DNA of 64,000 nucleotides from Bacteroidia bacterium (GTDB lineage Bacteria; Bacteroidota; Bacteroidia; J057): contig JAWPMV010000001.1 in the NCBI GenBank assembly GCA_033391075.1, positions 3,224,001 through 3,288,000 of the forward strand, read 5' to 3'. Shown here piece by piece: positions 4,997 through 58,858 of this stretch. How positions within the stretch are numbered: the stretch's first letter is position 1; every line of letters starts with the position of its first letter. The notes beneath the pieces are model-generated. The model ran no database searches. It was not told the DNA's origin and saw only the letters and a list, made by a program, of their open reading frames with translations. Made by a program: the position numbers and the translations under genes.

Positions 4997-5067
4997 AAGT
5001 GTTCTTGTGTTCTGGTGATCTGGTGATCTGGTGTTCTGCTTTGGCAGAATATGCAAGGAGAACACTT
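4997..5067. repeat. Intergenic inverted-repeat element, locus A (GTGTTCTGG family)
   Basis: Perfect 9-bp outer arms AAGTGTTCT (4997-5005) and AGAACACTT (5059-5067) enclose tandem TGTTCTGG/TGATCTGG units and an inner TTCTGC/GCAGAA hairpin (5034-5049). It sits directly after the DUF952 stop and before the convergent gene at 5091. It belongs to the same family as the repeats near 6.2, 8.8, 10.2, 11.0/11.5, 14.0 and 15.7 kb. Confidence 0.8.
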
Positions 5068-5090
5068 GAAAACGAAAGCAAATGAAAACA

Positions 5091-6189: not shown

Positions 6190-6240
6190 GTGTTCCTGTA
6201 TTCTAGTGGATACTTCCAGAACACGAGAACACCAGAACAC
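6190..6240. repeat. Intergenic inverted-repeat element, locus B (GTGTTCTGG family)
   Basis: A left arm starting GTGTTCCTGTATTCTAG (6190) and a right arm of GAGAACACCAGAACAC units (6225-6240) are imperfectly complementary. They close on a tight TGGA-tact-TCCA hairpin (6207-6218). The element lies between tRNA-Arg and the SGNH lipoprotein gene. Confidence 0.7.
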
Positions 6241-6288
6241 TCTTCCAGCTTTTCCTTATTTTTAAGGCTCCATTCGCATTTACGAAAC

Positions 6289-10229: not shown

Positions 10230-10988
10230 TTATTTCTTCTCAAATCTCGCCAGCGCCTCTTTGGTATAATCACTCAGCACCAGTCGCCCAGACATCTCAG
10301 CTCTTTTCTCCAGCAATTCATCCCAGTCTTCCGTTCCTGCCCAAATAACCTCTTTGAGCATGCGCTGTGCTTCTGGATTACTGCTCGCCAGATTATCTGC
10401 AAGCTCCAGGATAGCTTTGTCCAGTTCTTCCGGCCAATCAAAAACCTCTGTATACAGTCCTTTTTCTTTGGCCCATTGTGCGGATTGGAATTCGGTAGCA
10501 TTGATGGTAAGCTGAGAGAAAGCAGAGCTTCCGATCTTCCTTTCGACTGCAGGTCCAACAACAAAAGGTCCTATGCCCACTGCCAATTCACTGAGCTTTA
10601 TCCCTGCATATTTGCTGGCCAAACAGTAGTCTACTGCTGCTGCCAAGCCAACTCCCCCACCTACAGCTTTTCCCTGTACACGTCCAATGATGAACTTTGG
10701 GCATTTACGACAGGCATTGATGACATTGGCGAAACCCATGAAGAATTTCTTGCCCGTTTCGAAATCATTGATAGTGATGAGCTCATCGAAACTGGCACCT
10801 GCACAAAAAGTGCGATCTCCTCCACTTTTGAGGATGATGACTTTTATCAACTCATCCTGACCGGCTTTTGTAATGGCAGCAGCAAGCTGCGACAGGATAT
10901 CTCCGGGGAGAGAGTTGTGGGCCGGATGGTAGAAGGTGATGACGGCGATGCCGGGTTTTATTAGTTCGGTACGAACGAAAGGGTCCAT
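10230..10988 (-). CDS. Enoyl-CoA hydratase/isomerase family protein of the paa cluster
   Basis: A 252-residue crotonase-fold protein. The oxyanion-hole blocks are CAGASFDEL (about residue 62) and GKAVGGGVGLAAAVD (about 105). Of the two catalytic glutamates of classical enoyl-CoA hydratase, the first is Gly here (GGGVG where GGGCE is usual) and the second is kept (KLSEL, exactly 20 residues on). It may do the PaaF hydration step in beta-oxidation of the ring-opened product, as no other PaaF candidate is present, but the residue pattern makes that uncertain. It is divergent from the better PaaG match at 15762. The neighbours are paaK downstream and the four-helix-bundle element upstream. Confidence 0.75.
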   Translation of the reverse strand: MDPFVRTELIKPGIAVITFYHPAHNSLPGDILSQLAAAITKAGQDELIKVIILKSGGDRTFCAGASFDELITINDFETGKKFFMGFANVINACRKCPKFIIGRVQGKAVGGGVGLAAAVDYCLASKYAGIKLSELAVGIGPFVVGPAVERKIGSSAFSQLTINATEFQSAQWAKEKGLYTEVFDWPEELDKAILELADNLASSNPEAQRMLKEVIWAGTEDWDELLEKRAEMSGRLVLSDYTKEALARFEKK

Positions 10989-11005
10989 ATATTCTTTTTT
11001 AAGGA

Positions 11006-11475
11006 AGTGTTTTAGTGTTGTAGTGTTATAGTTTCATTTTTCAATAGTTGTGCGGAGATACCTCAAGAAGCCTAGAGTTAAAGACAGGGTATTTGAAAGG
11101 TGCAACTTTATTTTATTCAAATTTTCCTTATCAGCATACTCAAGATCTTCCAATATATAAAGCATACTTTTTACTTCTAAGGCTGAACTTTGAGAATATT
11201 CAAGGAATCTAATGAATTCCTTATTACTATATCTTCCAAAACCCTCTGCAATATTGTTCATTACAGATAATGATGCCCTTTTCAATTGGCTTTTCGTATC
11301 AAAATCCCTCCGAAGTTTTCCTTGTTCACATATTATAAAAACTTCTGTAACCAGCTTTCGTGCTTCTTTCCAACAATCCAGTTCTTCAAATCTGTTAATT
11401 TTTGCCATATACAATTTTTATTCTATATGACACCAAAAGAAACAGCTATATATACAACTACAACACTAAAACACT
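11006..11475. mobile_element. Inverted-repeat-bounded unit carrying a four-helix-bundle gene (locus E)
   Basis: Perfect 19-bp terminal inverted repeats, AGTGTTTTAGTGTTGTAGT at 11006-11024 and its exact complement at 11457-11475, enclose a single gene (11034-11414). The arms are built from the same GTGTT-type 8-9 bp units as the empty elements nearby, and the similarity continues imperfectly a few bases inward and outward. No transposase and no clear target duplication are seen. It is inserted between paaZ and the enoyl-CoA hydratase gene, in the middle of the catabolic cluster. Confidence 0.7.
11034..11414 (-). CDS. Four-helix-bundle protein (S23 / 23S rRNA intervening-sequence family)
   Basis: 126 residues from the ATG at 11414, or 124 from the ATG two codons later. 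It matches the S23/Avd-like four-helix-bundle family: FEELDCWKEARKL in helix 1, SQLKRASLSVMNNIAEGFGR across helix 2, SNKEFIRFLEYSQSSALEV in helix 3 and a closing amphipathic helix. Family members were first found in intervening sequences of 23S rRNA; the DGR accessory protein Avd has the same fold and binds nucleic acid. The molecular role is unknown. Here it sits inside perfect inverted repeats and looks more AT-rich than the paa genes around it, which suggests insertion. Confidence 0.9.
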   Translation of the reverse strand: MYMAKINRFEELDCWKEARKLVTEVFIICEQGKLRRDFDTKSQLKRASLSVMNNIAEGFGRYSNKEFIRFLEYSQSSALEVKSMLYILEDLEYADKENLNKIKLHLSNTLSLTLGFLRYLRTTIEK

Positions 11476-11500
11476 ACAACACATTCAAATCTTTATTTAA

Positions 11501-13999
11501 TCACTTCGTGATAAGCCCAAATTGCTCAAAATGATGATGAAAATGTTTCCGATTATAATTCTCCCACATCTCTTCATCGAGCATGCCAAAAACCGGATTG
11601 AATAGGGTCGCTGCCGGATTTTCTTTGAAAAGCGCATCTGATTCATCCATGGATTTGCGGAGGGCTTCTTTGGCTTCTTCCAGACTTCCGTATTTCAAGT
11701 CTTCCAGTTCTCCCTTTTTCAAAAGGGGATGTTGAAATTCTTTTGGCATACCTTTAAAATTGAAAAGCATCTCCTGGGTTTTTTCCATGTACTTTTCGGG
11801 CGTGGTCTGGGGTACTTCTATTTTGCCTAAAGCAATGTCATAGAAGTATTCCAAATGCTCTACCATATGCTGAGGTGTCAGGATTCCCCAGGAAGGTTTG
11901 GTTGATTCTGTTAGGGCATTGAGACTGGCATCTACCTTCTCGCGGCTAAATTCGAAGAAAGGATTTTTCTTTTGAACCAGGGTCAGTATGGTTGCCATGG
12001 CGACCAATTCACCTTCCTGATCGAAGATCTCTTCATACCATTTTACCACACCAGAAGGATATTCTCTGCCACGACTGTCGCGTTCTACTTTTTCTTTGCA
12101 GGTCAAACGTACTTGCAAGGTATCATTATGGTAGATGGGGCGAATGAAACGACATTCGTCCAGACCATAGTTTGCACCAACAGGACCTTTACCCGGATGA
12201 ACAAACAAGCCTGCAGCAGCAGCCAAAATGAAATAGCCATGTGCAGCTCTTTTCTCAAATATCGACCCTTTAAGGGAGGTAATATCTGTATGTGCGTAGA
12301 AATGATCCCAGGTCAGATTGGCGAAATTGATGATATCACTATCTGTAATGGTACGCTTATGCGTAGTTATGGACATACCTGGCTGTATATCTTCGAAGTG
12401 ATATTTAAAGGGATGTTGTGGCGCCTCCACAACTTTAGATCCGGATTGATAAATACCCGTAATGGCAGTCAAAGTAGTGGGAGTTCCCTGTACAGCACAT
12501 CTCTGTAAATAATGCTTGATCCCTCTCATGCCTCCCATTTCTTCTCCGCCACCTGCTCTACCGGGTCCACCATGAACCAAAGTAGGTAAAGGAGAGCCAT
12601 GTCCGGTACTTTGTTTGGCATTTTCTCTATTGAGTACCAAAATTCGTCCGTGATGACTAGCTGCACCTACGACAAAATCCCGGGCTTCCTGATCATCGAA
12701 TGTTGCTATTGAACAACAAAGGGAGCCTTTGCCCATTTGAGCCAGTTCAATAGCTTCCTCCATATTTTTATAAGGCATAAGGGTACTTACCGGACCAAAT
12801 GCCTCAATTTCGTGTACGCCTACATTTTCGAAGGGGGATTTCTCCAGCATCAAGATTGGAGAAAGGAAGGCCCCTTTATTTGCATCGGCATCTATTAGCT
12901 GAACTTCATCTAAAGAACCATATACAATCTTAGCGGTCTGAGCAATTTCCCCTACCCTTTCTCTCACTTCTTCGACCTGGTCTTTACTCGCCAAAGCTCC
13001 CATTCTAACTCCCTCCGCTAGTGGATTTCCAATTCCTACTTTCGCCAAAGATTTTCCCAGGGCGATTTGTACATCTTCTATCAAATGTTCTGGAACAATT
13101 ACACGGCGAATAGCTGTACACTTCTGCCCGCATTTTGATGTCATTTCCTTGCGTACCTCTTTGATAAAGAGATCAAATTCGGGCGTACCTGGAACAGCCT
13201 TTTCCCCTAATACAGAACAATTCAAACTATCTGCCTCCATATTGAAGGGTACAGCTTCTGAGATGATCCGAGAATGAGATTTCAAATGACGACCAGTATC
13301 TGCAGAACCCGTGAAAGTAACTACATCCTGAGATTCAACTGCATCTAAAATCGTCCTCGCAGATCCACAGATCAATTGCAAGGCTCCTTCAGGCAATATT
13401 CCGGAGGCAATGATTTCCTTTACCACAGCCTCTGTCAAAAAAGAGGTAGCCGTTGCCGGTTTCACTACTGCCGGAACTCCTGCCATCCAATTACATGCAC
13501 ACTTTTCCAACATGCCCCAAACCGGAAAATTATAGGCATTGATGTGAATCGCTACCCCTCTTTTTGGCACCATGATATGATGCCCCATGAAACTTCCTCC
13601 ACGAGAAAGATCGATCGGATCACCATCCACATGAAAACTCTGATTGGGGAAATTCTTCCTTAAAGAAGCATTGGCAAAAAGATTACCAAATCCCCCCTCT
13701 ATATCTACCCAGCTATCTGCACGAGTCGCTCCTGTCTTATAACTAATTTCGTAGAATTGCTCTTTTCTTTTGTTGAGGTACAGGGCAAGTCGCTTGAGCA
13801 TATTGCCTCTTTCCTGAAAGGTCATTTTACGCAGCGGATTCCCTCCGACCTTTCGACCATAAGCTAAAACCTCAGCCAGATCAATTCCATCTGTAGTTGC
13901 GGTTGCAATAAGCTCTCCATTTACTGCATTGTACAAGGGTTTTCCTTCTCCCTTTCCATCCATCCAGCTTCCAAGTACGTAATTTCCGAGTTTGTACAT
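11501..13999 (-). CDS. paaZ: PaaZ: oxepin-CoA hydrolase / 3-oxo-5,6-dehydrosuberyl-CoA semialdehyde dehydrogenase, with C-terminal DUF1569-like extension
   Basis: An 832-residue bifunctional ring-opening enzyme. Residues 1-520 are the aldehyde dehydrogenase domain (catalytic Cys in CGQKCTAIRR near 295). Residues about 530-680 are the MaoC-type hotdog hydratase (FANLTWDHFYAHTD, matching the catalytic Asp-His of E. coli PaaZ). E. coli PaaZ is about 680 residues; the extra 150 (TPQHMVEHLEYF ... NPVFGMLDEEMWENYNRKHFHHHFEQFG) resemble a DUF1569/DinB-like helical domain. The protein cleaves oxepin-CoA and oxidises the resulting aldehyde. It lies between repeat loci E and F. Confidence 0.93.
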   Translation of the reverse strand: MYKLGNYVLGSWMDGKGEGKPLYNAVNGELIATATTDGIDLAEVLAYGRKVGGNPLRKMTFQERGNMLKRLALYLNKRKEQFYEISYKTGATRADSWVDIEGGFGNLFANASLRKNFPNQSFHVDGDPIDLSRGGSFMGHHIMVPKRGVAIHINAYNFPVWGMLEKCACNWMAGVPAVVKPATATSFLTEAVVKEIIASGILPEGALQLICGSARTILDAVESQDVVTFTGSADTGRHLKSHSRIISEAVPFNMEADSLNCSVLGEKAVPGTPEFDLFIKEVRKEMTSKCGQKCTAIRRVIVPEHLIEDVQIALGKSLAKVGIGNPLAEGVRMGALASKDQVEEVRERVGEIAQTAKIVYGSLDEVQLIDADANKGAFLSPILMLEKSPFENVGVHEIEAFGPVSTLMPYKNMEEAIELAQMGKGSLCCSIATFDDQEARDFVVGAASHHGRILVLNRENAKQSTGHGSPLPTLVHGGPGRAGGGEEMGGMRGIKHYLQRCAVQGTPTTLTAITGIYQSGSKVVEAPQHPFKYHFEDIQPGMSITTHKRTITDSDIINFANLTWDHFYAHTDITSLKGSIFEKRAAHGYFILAAAAGLFVHPGKGPVGANYGLDECRFIRPIYHNDTLQVRLTCKEKVERDSRGREYPSGVVKWYEEIFDQEGELVAMATILTLVQKKNPFFEFSREKVDASLNALTESTKPSWGILTPQHMVEHLEYFYDIALGKIEVPQTTPEKYMEKTQEMLFNFKGMPKEFQHPLLKKGELEDLKYGSLEEAKEALRKSMDESDALFKENPAATLFNPVFGMLDEEMWENYNRKHFHHHFEQFGLITK

Positions 14000-15690: not shown

Positions 15691-15697
15691 ATTAATA

Positions 15698-15752
15698 GTG
15701 TTCTGGTGTTCTGGTGTTCTGGTGTTAGGGTCCAACTTGAACACCAGAACAC
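15698..15752. repeat. Intergenic inverted-repeat element, locus G (TGTTCTGG tandem)
   Basis: Three perfect tandem TGTTCTGG units (15699-15722) plus a variant TGTTAGGG. The arm GTGTTCTGGTGTT (15698-15710) is perfectly complementary to AACACCAGAACAC (15740-15752), a 13-bp inverted repeat. It fills the gap between paaG and paaH and starts 8 nt upstream of the paaH ATG, so it may cover the paaH ribosome-binding region when folded. Confidence 0.85.
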
Positions 15753-15761
15753 ATGAGCACC

Positions 15762-16541
15762 TCATTTTCCTTTAAACTCCGCTTTCCTTTTTTCTACAAA
15801 GGCCTGAACGCCTTCATTATAATCATAGGTCTCGAAGGCTGCGAGTTGAGTAGCTGTCTCCAGACTGAGTTGAGATTCGAGATTATTTGTGAGGGATTGA
15901 TTAAAAGCTTTTTTGGTTAAAGCGAGGCCCTTTGTGGCCATTTTGGCCATTCTATGGGCAAGACTTAATGACTCACTCATGAAATCTTCTGCAGGCAGGA
16001 CTTTGTAGATCATCCCCATTTTTTCCGCTTCAGTTGCAGAAATTTTATCGCCTAGCATACTGATGGCCAAAGCTTTTTGAAATCCAATAAGCCGAGGAAG
16101 GAAAAAAGTTCCTCCACTATCCGGAATCAAGCCTATACCTGAAAATGCCTGAATGAAGCTGGCTTTTTCGCTGGCAAGCACAATATCACAGGCCAGAGCT
16201 ATATTCGCTCCTGCTCCCGCTGCTACTCCATTTACGGCTGCAATCACGGGCTTTTCAAGTTCTCTTATTTTGAGGATTATAGGTTTGAAATGCTCATCAA
16301 GAATTACCCGAAATCCCGGACGGTTTTCTTCATCGGTAATTTCTTTTAAATCCTGACCGGCACAGAAGGCTCTTCCAGTACCTGTAATAAGAACAGCCCT
16401 TACATCTTCCCTGCTTGCGCAAGTATCCAGAGCTTCCTGAAAAGCCAGAGCCAGTTCGCGGGTGACACTATTGAAAGCATCAGGCCGATTCAAGCTAATT
16501 GTTCCTACTCCCTCATTGATCTCGAATAGTAGTACAGACAT
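15762..16541 (-). CDS. paaG: 1,2-epoxyphenylacetyl-CoA isomerase PaaG
   Basis: The start is set at 16541 (MSVLLFEINEGVG), giving 259 residues, the usual PaaG length; the 33-residue upstream extension reads back into paaD. A crotonase fold with PaaG hallmarks: AFCAGQDLKE, VNGVAAGAGANIAL, QAFSGIGLIPDSGGTFFLPR. Both hydratase glutamates are absent while the Asp of IPDSGG is kept, as expected of the isomerase that turns ring-1,2-epoxyphenylacetyl-CoA into oxepin-CoA. The end VEKRKAEFKGK is typical. It follows paaD after 22 nt. Confidence 0.92.
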   Translation of the reverse strand: MSVLLFEINEGVGTISLNRPDAFNSVTRELALAFQEALDTCASREDVRAVLITGTGRAFCAGQDLKEITDEENRPGFRVILDEHFKPIILKIRELEKPVIAAVNGVAAGAGANIALACDIVLASEKASFIQAFSGIGLIPDSGGTFFLPRLIGFQKALAISMLGDKISATEAEKMGMIYKVLPAEDFMSESLSLAHRMAKMATKGLALTKKAFNQSLTNNLESQLSLETATQLAAFETYDYNEGVQAFVEKRKAEFKGK

Positions 16542-58804: not shown

Positions 58805-58806
58805 AA

Positions 58807-58840
58807 GAAAAAGCCCCGAAGAATTCTTCGGGGCTTTTTC
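58807..58840. terminator. Bidirectional terminator
   Basis: A perfect 34-bp palindrome built of GAAAAAGCCCCGAAGAA and its complement, with T-runs on both sides. It ends the plus-strand DUF2231 gene and the minus-strand RGG gene (stop 58859). Confidence 0.93.
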
Positions 58841-58858
58841 TTATTTATGTTTATCAGA

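Follow-up and report, generated by a model that had tools for sequence, protein, structure and literature searches.

The unit at about 11003-11482 of the window (the whole 64,000-nucleotide stretch of Bacteroidia bacterium DNA analysed here) is probably one copy of a widespread, REPIN/RAYT-like mobile element whose sole protein is a four-helix ring and which has no known recombinase. The element as we propose it would be a cassette of ~420-480 bp in which one S23/IVP gene is bounded by terminal inverted arrays of 7- or 8-nt units, the dialect of the arrays differing from one S23 gene to another. Palindromic arrays that lack the gene but are of like dialect, within one genome, would then represent its non-autonomous form, comparable to REPINs in their relation to RAYT genes.

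The S23 unit of the window

The gene (11034-11408, minus strand) encodes a protein of 124 amino acids from an ATG at 11408; the listed ORF extends further at its outer end (11034-11414, minus strand, 126 aa), where it has a TTG start. The protein exceeds the curated cut-offs of both Pfam PF05635 (23S_rRNA_IVP; E 4e-30, 104.6 bits against a cut-off of 33.8) and TIGR02436 (four helix bundle protein; E 5.7e-27, 94.1 bits against 24), and on these profile matches and its predicted four-helix fold the gene is a member of the S23/IVP family. To our knowledge, this is a family of solved fold whose function is not known. The AlphaFold monomer (pLDDT 95.6) consists of four helices. In a Foldseek comparison its top PDB match is XCC0516 (2gsc, TM 0.83), with the solved S23 protein 2rld also matched, whereas the match to Avd (4dwl_D; TM 0.73, E 0.035, 8% sequence identity) is weaker than those to the S23 structures. 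XCC0516 is described in the available part of PMC4990558 as a homopentameric ring. A phage collection searched with the window protein at E 1e-3 gave zero matches. In an alignment of S23 proteins (A1), Q41, R44, S48, N52 and E55 are invariant polar residues along helix 2, where R59 is almost invariant, and helix 3 has two more invariant ones, S75 and E78; on the alignment and the model, these residues could possibly form a functional face.

Upstream of the S23 gene lies paaZ (11501-13999, minus strand; TIGR02278) and downstream a gene for an enoyl-CoA hydratase/isomerase (10230-10988, minus strand; assigned by profile match), all three being on the same strand, with a paaK-like gene further on, so that the unit does split a catabolic cluster, as the preliminary description of this DNA had it. 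The S23 gene (PF05635) is the only gene of the unit, which encodes no nuclease, transposase or reverse transcriptase. The PaaZ protein of the window carries ~150 additional C-terminal residues (window 11501-11959); three same-family PaaZ proteins end before this extension and the matches of four more stop at the identical point.

Perfect 19-bp complementary ends around one S23 gene had also been reported, and by exact match the left copy (11006-11024, plus strand) is indeed the exact complement of the right copy (11457-11475, minus strand). As an account of the ends, however, this was an understatement: they are octamer arrays (AGTGTTNT), and other members of this octamer family are found elsewhere in the window. 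The arm 5' of the gene (11453-11482, minus strand), a lag-8 array, reads GTGTTGTAGTGTTTTAGTGTTGTAGTTGT on the minus strand, and the 3' arm, an inverted octamer array (11003-11037, likewise assigned to the minus strand), reads AGTGTTTTAGTGTTGTAGTGTTATAG on the plus strand and extends up to the stop codon. From 11006 the plus strand runs through the octamers AGTGTTTT, AGTGTTGT and AGTGTTAT, with the inverse at 11482-11453. The arms can also be matched over a longer, imperfect 46 nt (74%; 11006-11051/11430-11475) and, in a shifted register, over 18 nt (94%; 11015-11032/11465-11482). The window contains 13 copies of GTGTTNNNGTGTT, against an expectation of 0.03. The only other exact 19-mer inverted pair within 1 kb in the window is a perfect 38-bp palindrome at 58805-58842.

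Dialects and gene-less arrays in the genome

The 9.49 Mb genome contains two PF05635 matches, the window gene and a second locus, L001, whose protein is 57% identical to the window S23 protein. Inverted octamers surround the second gene too, though in another dialect, with GGTGTTCT...CGTGTTCTGG before the gene and AACACCAG repeats after it; the dialects of the two genes are TA and CTG. There are 66 matches to AGTGTTNTAGTGTT in the genome (one for the reversed control), and at many of the 30 places inspected an array is followed, after a short spacer, by one in inverted orientation. The octamer pattern GTGTTNNNGTGTTNNNGTGTT has 243 matches, several per array (four for the reversed control), and 0 in 22 relatives. 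GTGTT-type repeats, which had been put forward as the general arm of such genes, are therefore a dialect of this one genome, and other loci have other 7/8-nt units.

Gene-less arrays of the CTG dialect are present in the window itself, at 4998-5068 (an octamer array with a short inverted counterpart, AGTGTTCTTGTGTTCTGG... / ...AGAACACTT), at 6190-6241 (an inverted array, GTGTTCCTGTATTCTAG / CCAGAACACGAGAACACCAGAACAC) and at 15697-15762 (an inverted array with the unit found in the L001 arms). A third dialect, AGG (GTGTTAGG, GTGTTTGG), is dispersed in the genome, GTGTTAGG being found at C1:754106-754134 and C1:1863800-1863828, for example; no S23 gene with arms of this dialect was found among the two PF05635 matches of the genome. 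The genome thus displays the REPIN/RAYT trait of a gene flanked by repeats that are also dispersed as inverted pairs. A second such trait, a flavour of repeat proper to each protein, fits the TA and CTG genes but not the AGG dialect, for which no S23 gene was found.

Inverted arms at S23 loci of many phyla

Our joint set comprised 178 S23 loci from many phyla, of which 173 were usable (L094 duplicates L103 and was left out, and so was L103 itself). Locus-specific inverted repeats with a score of at least 14 are present at 109 of the 173. A further 45 of the 64 remaining loci have a 7/8-nt array in a flank, compared with 32 of 1000 intervals drawn at random from S23-less genomes, and 19 of the 173 show neither arms nor flank array at these thresholds. 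The expectation of the preliminary description that S23 genes would not lack repeats is thus borne out in one form or the other for all but these 19. In the S23-bearing genomes, controls with scores of at least 14 amounted to 13 of 3000 random 370-nt intervals and 5 of 306 ORFs, falling to 10 and 3, respectively, at a score of at least 16.

The same picture emerges from the individual samples. Of the 80 genomes in the relatives set, 57 have PF05635, in up to 23 copies, and 86 of these matches, taken mostly highest-scoring first, were examined as window-class loci by comparing the 250 nt before the gene with the 250 nt after it: complementarity of at least 16 was found at 47 of the 86, against 32 of 7132 cross-locus pairs. 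A multi-phylum set, built from the best 80 of at least 573 relatives of XCC0516 and reduced to 74 usable loci by the removal of six with short flanks, gave 37 of 74 at the same threshold against 82 of 5402 cross-locus pairs; it includes loci from Xanthomonas, Flavobacterium, Nitrospira, Desulfuromonadales, Planctomycetes, Clostridia, candidate phyla and one ANME-1 archaeon. In a sample of cyanobacterial plasmids (12 of 28 records), 9 of 12 S23 loci score at least 14.

Direct matches of at least 16 between the flanks are seen at 12 of the 86 window-class loci and at 13 of the 74 multi-phylum loci (best 80 of at least 573), and arrays can also produce matches of this kind. Strong direct repeats between the S23 flanks are found at L062, L109, L113 and L117 (genomes G002 and G010); at L062 and L113 the inverted match is not above background. 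The plasmid units L121, L128, L127, L125 and L120 lie between cas6 and cas4, between cas10 and cmr3, between an AAA ATPase and a ParB gene and between two ribonucleotide reductase genes.

At four Xanthomonas loci (L131-L134) the S23 gene has GGGAATC arms and lies between genes read by eye as accB and accC. Four more loci at the same accB/accC place (L135-L138) score below 14, with arrays visible by eye in L136-L138. From its sequence context, this single fixed place in Xanthomonas and its kin looks to hold a resident copy, not a jumping one.

What the arms have in common

The letters of the arms vary between loci. Among 108 arms, 81 fit a period of 7 best and 19 a period of 8, other lags being at background, and the arm before the gene has more G than C at 100 of 109 loci, with the reverse at six. 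The 72 period-7 arms yield the unit consensus KKRRNAG (A 0.77, G 0.80), with an information content of 2.87 bits against 2.23 bits with permuted unit columns (largest of 20 controls, 2.29); for 17 period-8 arms the values are 3.54 and 3.06 bits (largest control, 3.32).

Where S23 proteins are >80% identical the arms are alike in 9 of 9 pairs, but since six of these are Xanthomonas orthologues, the similarity of protein and arm is in part shared descent. At 60-80% identity the arms are alike in 3 of 18 pairs, and across the set the correlation between protein and arm similarity is weak (Mantel rho 0.128, with 0 of 500 permutations as high). We had expected the S23 copies of one genome to have arms in common, an idea that was rejected: such arms are no more alike than those of different genomes. 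Like arms do occur at unlike places, as with the plasmid genes L125 and L126 and with L191 (Spirochaetaceae) and L203 (Thiohalocapsa), which suggests that gene and arms travel together.

Distribution of gene-less arrays

Arrays were counted in 20-kb stretches of genomes from one class, picked blind to arrays; the counts ignore phylogeny. There are 22 lag-7 arrays in 400 kb from 15 S23-bearing genomes and 3 in 697 kb from 18 S23-less genomes, with 6 and 0 inverted pairs of such arrays, respectively, whilst lags of 6, 9, 10 and 12 show no such difference. Counted by genome, an array is present in 11 of 15 S23-bearing and 3 of 18 S23-less genomes (Fisher p 0.0016, phylogeny ignored), the arrays of the S23-less genomes being weak. 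All 11 sampled genomes with at least five S23 genes have an array, as do none of the four with fewer. No S23 gene was found in the sampled array stretches at E 1e-4 (two marginal matches appear at E 1e-2), so the sampled arrays are gene-less. When 26 sampled arrays were compared with S23 arms, nine fitted the arms of the genome they came from better than the arms of any of 37 others, where ~0.7 would be expected; the nine come from five genomes, are partly both arms of one element and were compared with S23 genes that only partly cover each genome.

The Y1 transposase, as candidate driver of the arrays, is disfavoured, since in the sampled genomes having Y1 is no predictor of having arrays. 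Y1 genes are found in 56 of 80 genomes, including that of the window (E 2.4e-10). Amongst the sampled S23-less genomes, arrays are present in 0 of 9 with Y1 and in 3 of 9 without, and G029 has S23 and an array with no Y1 match. In G076, one 7-nt array lies ~320 nt from a Y1 transposase match (L216:6098-6753, G076:C1) and is possibly a RAYT-type neighbour.

Empty, array-only and filled sites

Orthologous paaZ-hydratase gaps without the gene of the unit, which the preliminary description had proposed to look for, were found. In the same family, G006 has a gap of 15 nt with no unit (an empty site), and two genomes have gene-less arrays only, inverted GGGTTTC in G002 and inverted GATTATT in G010. 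A fadA match is present in 66 genomes, and for 64 of these (all but G009 and G021) the space between fadB and fadA was also tabulated. Nine of the 64 rows have an S23 gene, five an array only and 23 a gap of no more than 60 nt, the rest having other spacing or other neighbours. All five array-only rows are from S23-bearing genomes (the array of G002 is not inverted by score), and within one genus G025 has an array and G071 a gap of 12 nt. As for a single origin of the fadB-fadA insertions, the label needs five changes on an 85-row tree, of whose 82 inner branches 34 are open, and the tree supports neither vertical descent nor repeated insertion. The fadB/fadA gap of S23-less G077 (L319) contains a long hairpin without 7/8-nt units, perhaps of another repeat family.

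Closely related cyanobacterial plasmids allow the edges of individual insertions to be seen. The L130 unit is absent from L349 and L350, at a flank identity of 97.7%. GTAAT occurs once in the empty site of these two plasmids and on both sides of the 423-bp L130 insert, a 5-bp duplication (read from the L350 comparison and the printed L349 alignment), and the ends of the insert are heptamer repeats in register. At the same place, L351 has only the 5' arm and a truncated S23 gene. A unit related to that of L130, present in L358 and L359, is missing from L129 at 93% identity; TTCTA flanks the L358 unit on both sides, with one base differing beside it, and on the right side of L359 the sequence is TTCTG. 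The 5-bp target duplication is thus seen in two events, involving related S23 genes in cyanobacterial plasmids that are 93-98% identical. Between L364 and L119 (97.9% identity) the difference is one of the interior only, the outer parts of the arms being kept and the gene between them absent, and L354 lacks the gene but has an array resembling that of L126. In the comparisons made for L126, L123, L129, L120, L127 and L363 the relative lacks the unit, and its edges do not reveal a duplication.

The claim that the unit is mobile in the manner of REP/RAYT is supported by the inverted repeats at most loci examined, the dispersed gene-less arrays of like dialect and the empty sites. A conserved position without empty sites, against which the preliminary description had staked its case, is not the general pattern, as empty sites exist, but the accB/accC place is persistent in Xanthomonas and its kin.

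Orientation and selection

Relative to the S23 gene, both neighbours (taken as longest open frames of 900 nt) are co-directed in 98 cases and both are opposed in five, of 163; the plasmid locus L120 is an exception of the latter kind. Either the S23 gene relies on read-through or insertion prefers transcripts. In six close pairs of S23 genes (three from Xanthomonas; two with dS of at least 1) dN/dS is 0.04-0.07, and the protein is therefore kept by purifying selection; in one distant pair the value is 0.59.

A possible mechanism and its alternatives

We infer that the S23 protein reads the arm repeats and has a role in movement. As a pentameric ring of four-helix bundles of the Avd fold, the S23 protein would bind that strand of the arm repeats which is rich in G and contains AG, presented as a single strand or hairpin of DNA or RNA, and this binding would guide copying or insertion by an enzyme encoded outside the element. 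More tentatively, the ring could join the ends or shield a single-stranded or RNA copy, with cutting carried out by a host or other enzyme. The gene would be expressed via read-through of its operon. An RNA intermediate may be involved, as both the orientation in sense and the resemblance to Avd would allow. In reading AG-containing units at even spacing, such a ring would resemble the TRAP protein. A broader proposal, which we advance tentatively and with rather more doubt than conviction, is that the S23/IVP proteins are founders of a separate class of mobility proteins, non-recombinase pentamer rings that would read AG repeats at 7/8-nt spacing, one per subunit, and drive REPIN-like inverted heptamer elements in bacterial and possibly archaeal genomes, with rRNA intervening sequences, the GGGAATC arrays of Xanthomonas and the heptamers of cyanobacteria as their products.

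The features of the unit might also be those of an RNA module whose mobility is incidental. The arms would base-pair within the transcript of the operon, cutting of the RNase III type would trim or separate the cistrons, and the S23 protein would bind arm RNA and control its own or neighbouring messages, as may hold for rRNA intervening sequences. The sense RNA of 11000-11485 does fold with its arms paired (z -3.77, with 0 of 100 shuffles equally stable), the predominant orientation of S23 genes is sense to both neighbours, and the S23-containing intervening sequence of Coxiella 23S rRNA has, according to the available part of PMC4990558, its gene in sense orientation, is 428 nt long and bounded by a stem, and is excised by RNase III. 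Such a module leaves unexplained the many gene-less copies in one genome, the empty sites and the 5-bp duplications, however, and we consider it unlikely as the main account, although it is compatible with mobility and both could hold.

A different possibility is that the arrays are moved in trans by another enzyme, for example a RAYT-like Y1 transposase or a DDE transposase, with the S23 protein as cargo or helper. Terminal inverted repeats and 5-bp duplications resemble ordinary transposition, Y1 genes are common in the genomes surveyed and that of the window has one, and there is the G076 array close to a Y1 match. The arrays nevertheless track S23 and not Y1 in the S23-less and G029 comparisons given above, a survey of Y1 alone, and we judge this explanation decidedly improbable. 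That the arrays arise through polymerase slippage and palindrome correction, and lie near S23 genes by chance or through intergenic tolerance, seems to us barely credible: indels in steps of 7 nt are reported for cyanobacterial heptamers in the available part of PMC4679880, but slippage does not account for the S23 association, seen across phyla and with controls, or for the shared dialects and the insertions.

Relationship to known systems

The S23 element shares with insertion sequences and MITEs its terminal inverted repeats and its gene-bearing and gene-less forms; a 5-bp duplication is seen in two plasmid events and does not show in six other comparisons. MITEs and their parent insertion sequences likewise have gene-bearing and gene-less forms, terminal inverted repeats and target duplication. 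The S23 unit differs from them in encoding no recognised transposase family and in having terminal repeats that vary by locus. Its likeness to the REPIN/RAYT system, as far as the available part of PMC3116915 describes it, lies in a protein gene flanked by repeats, dispersed intergenic inverted pairs and genome-specific expansion. RAYT genes each have their own flavour of repeat (PMC3116915, available part), and S23 arms likewise differ from one another, but for the AGG dialect no S23 gene was found. Unlike REPIN/RAYT, the S23 unit is without a Y1 (PF01797) transposase, has 7/8-nt arrays instead of REP palindromes, can be numerous as a gene within one genome and shows, in two cases, a 5-bp target duplication. 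As there is no Y1 in the unit and Y1 is not predictive of arrays in our sample, the S23 element is not a member of the REPIN/RAYT system.

With the rRNA intervening sequences described in the available part of PMC4990558, which have been proposed in print as mobile elements where they carry an S23p/IVP gene, the unit has in common the protein family, a size of ~430 nt, an inverted-repeat stem (in our case of a predicted transcript) and the sense orientation. Unlike them, it lies outside rRNA, between the paaZ and hydratase genes, and a search of 10900-11600 against Rfam gave zero family matches; S23 units differ further in having arms that are heptamer or octamer arrays and dispersed gene-less copies of like dialect. 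The same source, in its available part, counts the Xanthomonas S23 protein among intervening-sequence proteins, a placement not borne out by L131-L138, where the neighbouring genes read as accB and accC. The fold resembles that of Avd from diversity-generating retroelements (PDB 4dwl, 8ub7; TM 0.73 to 4dwl_D), but sequence identity to Avd is 8% and the immediate neighbours of the window S23 gene are catabolic, without a reverse transcriptase or template/variable repeat. No report of Avd as a pentamer was found in the open-licence literature.

Intergenic heptamers have been described before, namely GGGAATC in Xanthomonas and GGGGA(C/T)T in Nostoc (PMC4692102), with 186 repeat patterns of GGGAATC and 70 convergent inverted pairs in one Xanthomonas genome according to the available part of that account. 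TAACTGA heptamers occur in Beggiatoaceae, cyanobacteria and Bacteroidetes, by a mechanism of spreading described as not evident in the available part of PMC4679880; they are mostly direct repeats and our analysis makes no tie between them and S23. The published heptamers (in the parts of these accounts available) share the period of 7 with S23 arms, and GGGAATC is the exact arm unit of the Xanthomonas S23 gene (L131-L134), so that the intergenic heptamer repeats of Xanthomonas would be a gene-less form of the S23 element. Unlike our account of the S23 elements, the available parts of PMC4692102 and PMC4679880 name no S23 protein, and no link of S23 proteins with heptamer or octamer repeats was found among the matches listed in the open-licence literature.

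Implications

Two orphans, the intergenic heptamer repeats and the S23/IVP proteins, may thus explain each other. If this pairing is true, there is a class of mobile elements without a known recombinase, and the rRNA intervening sequences would be copies of a genome-wide element that have landed in rRNA. Taken together, the results point to a type of mobile element not recognised so far, one that may account for scattered short repeats in bacterial genomes.
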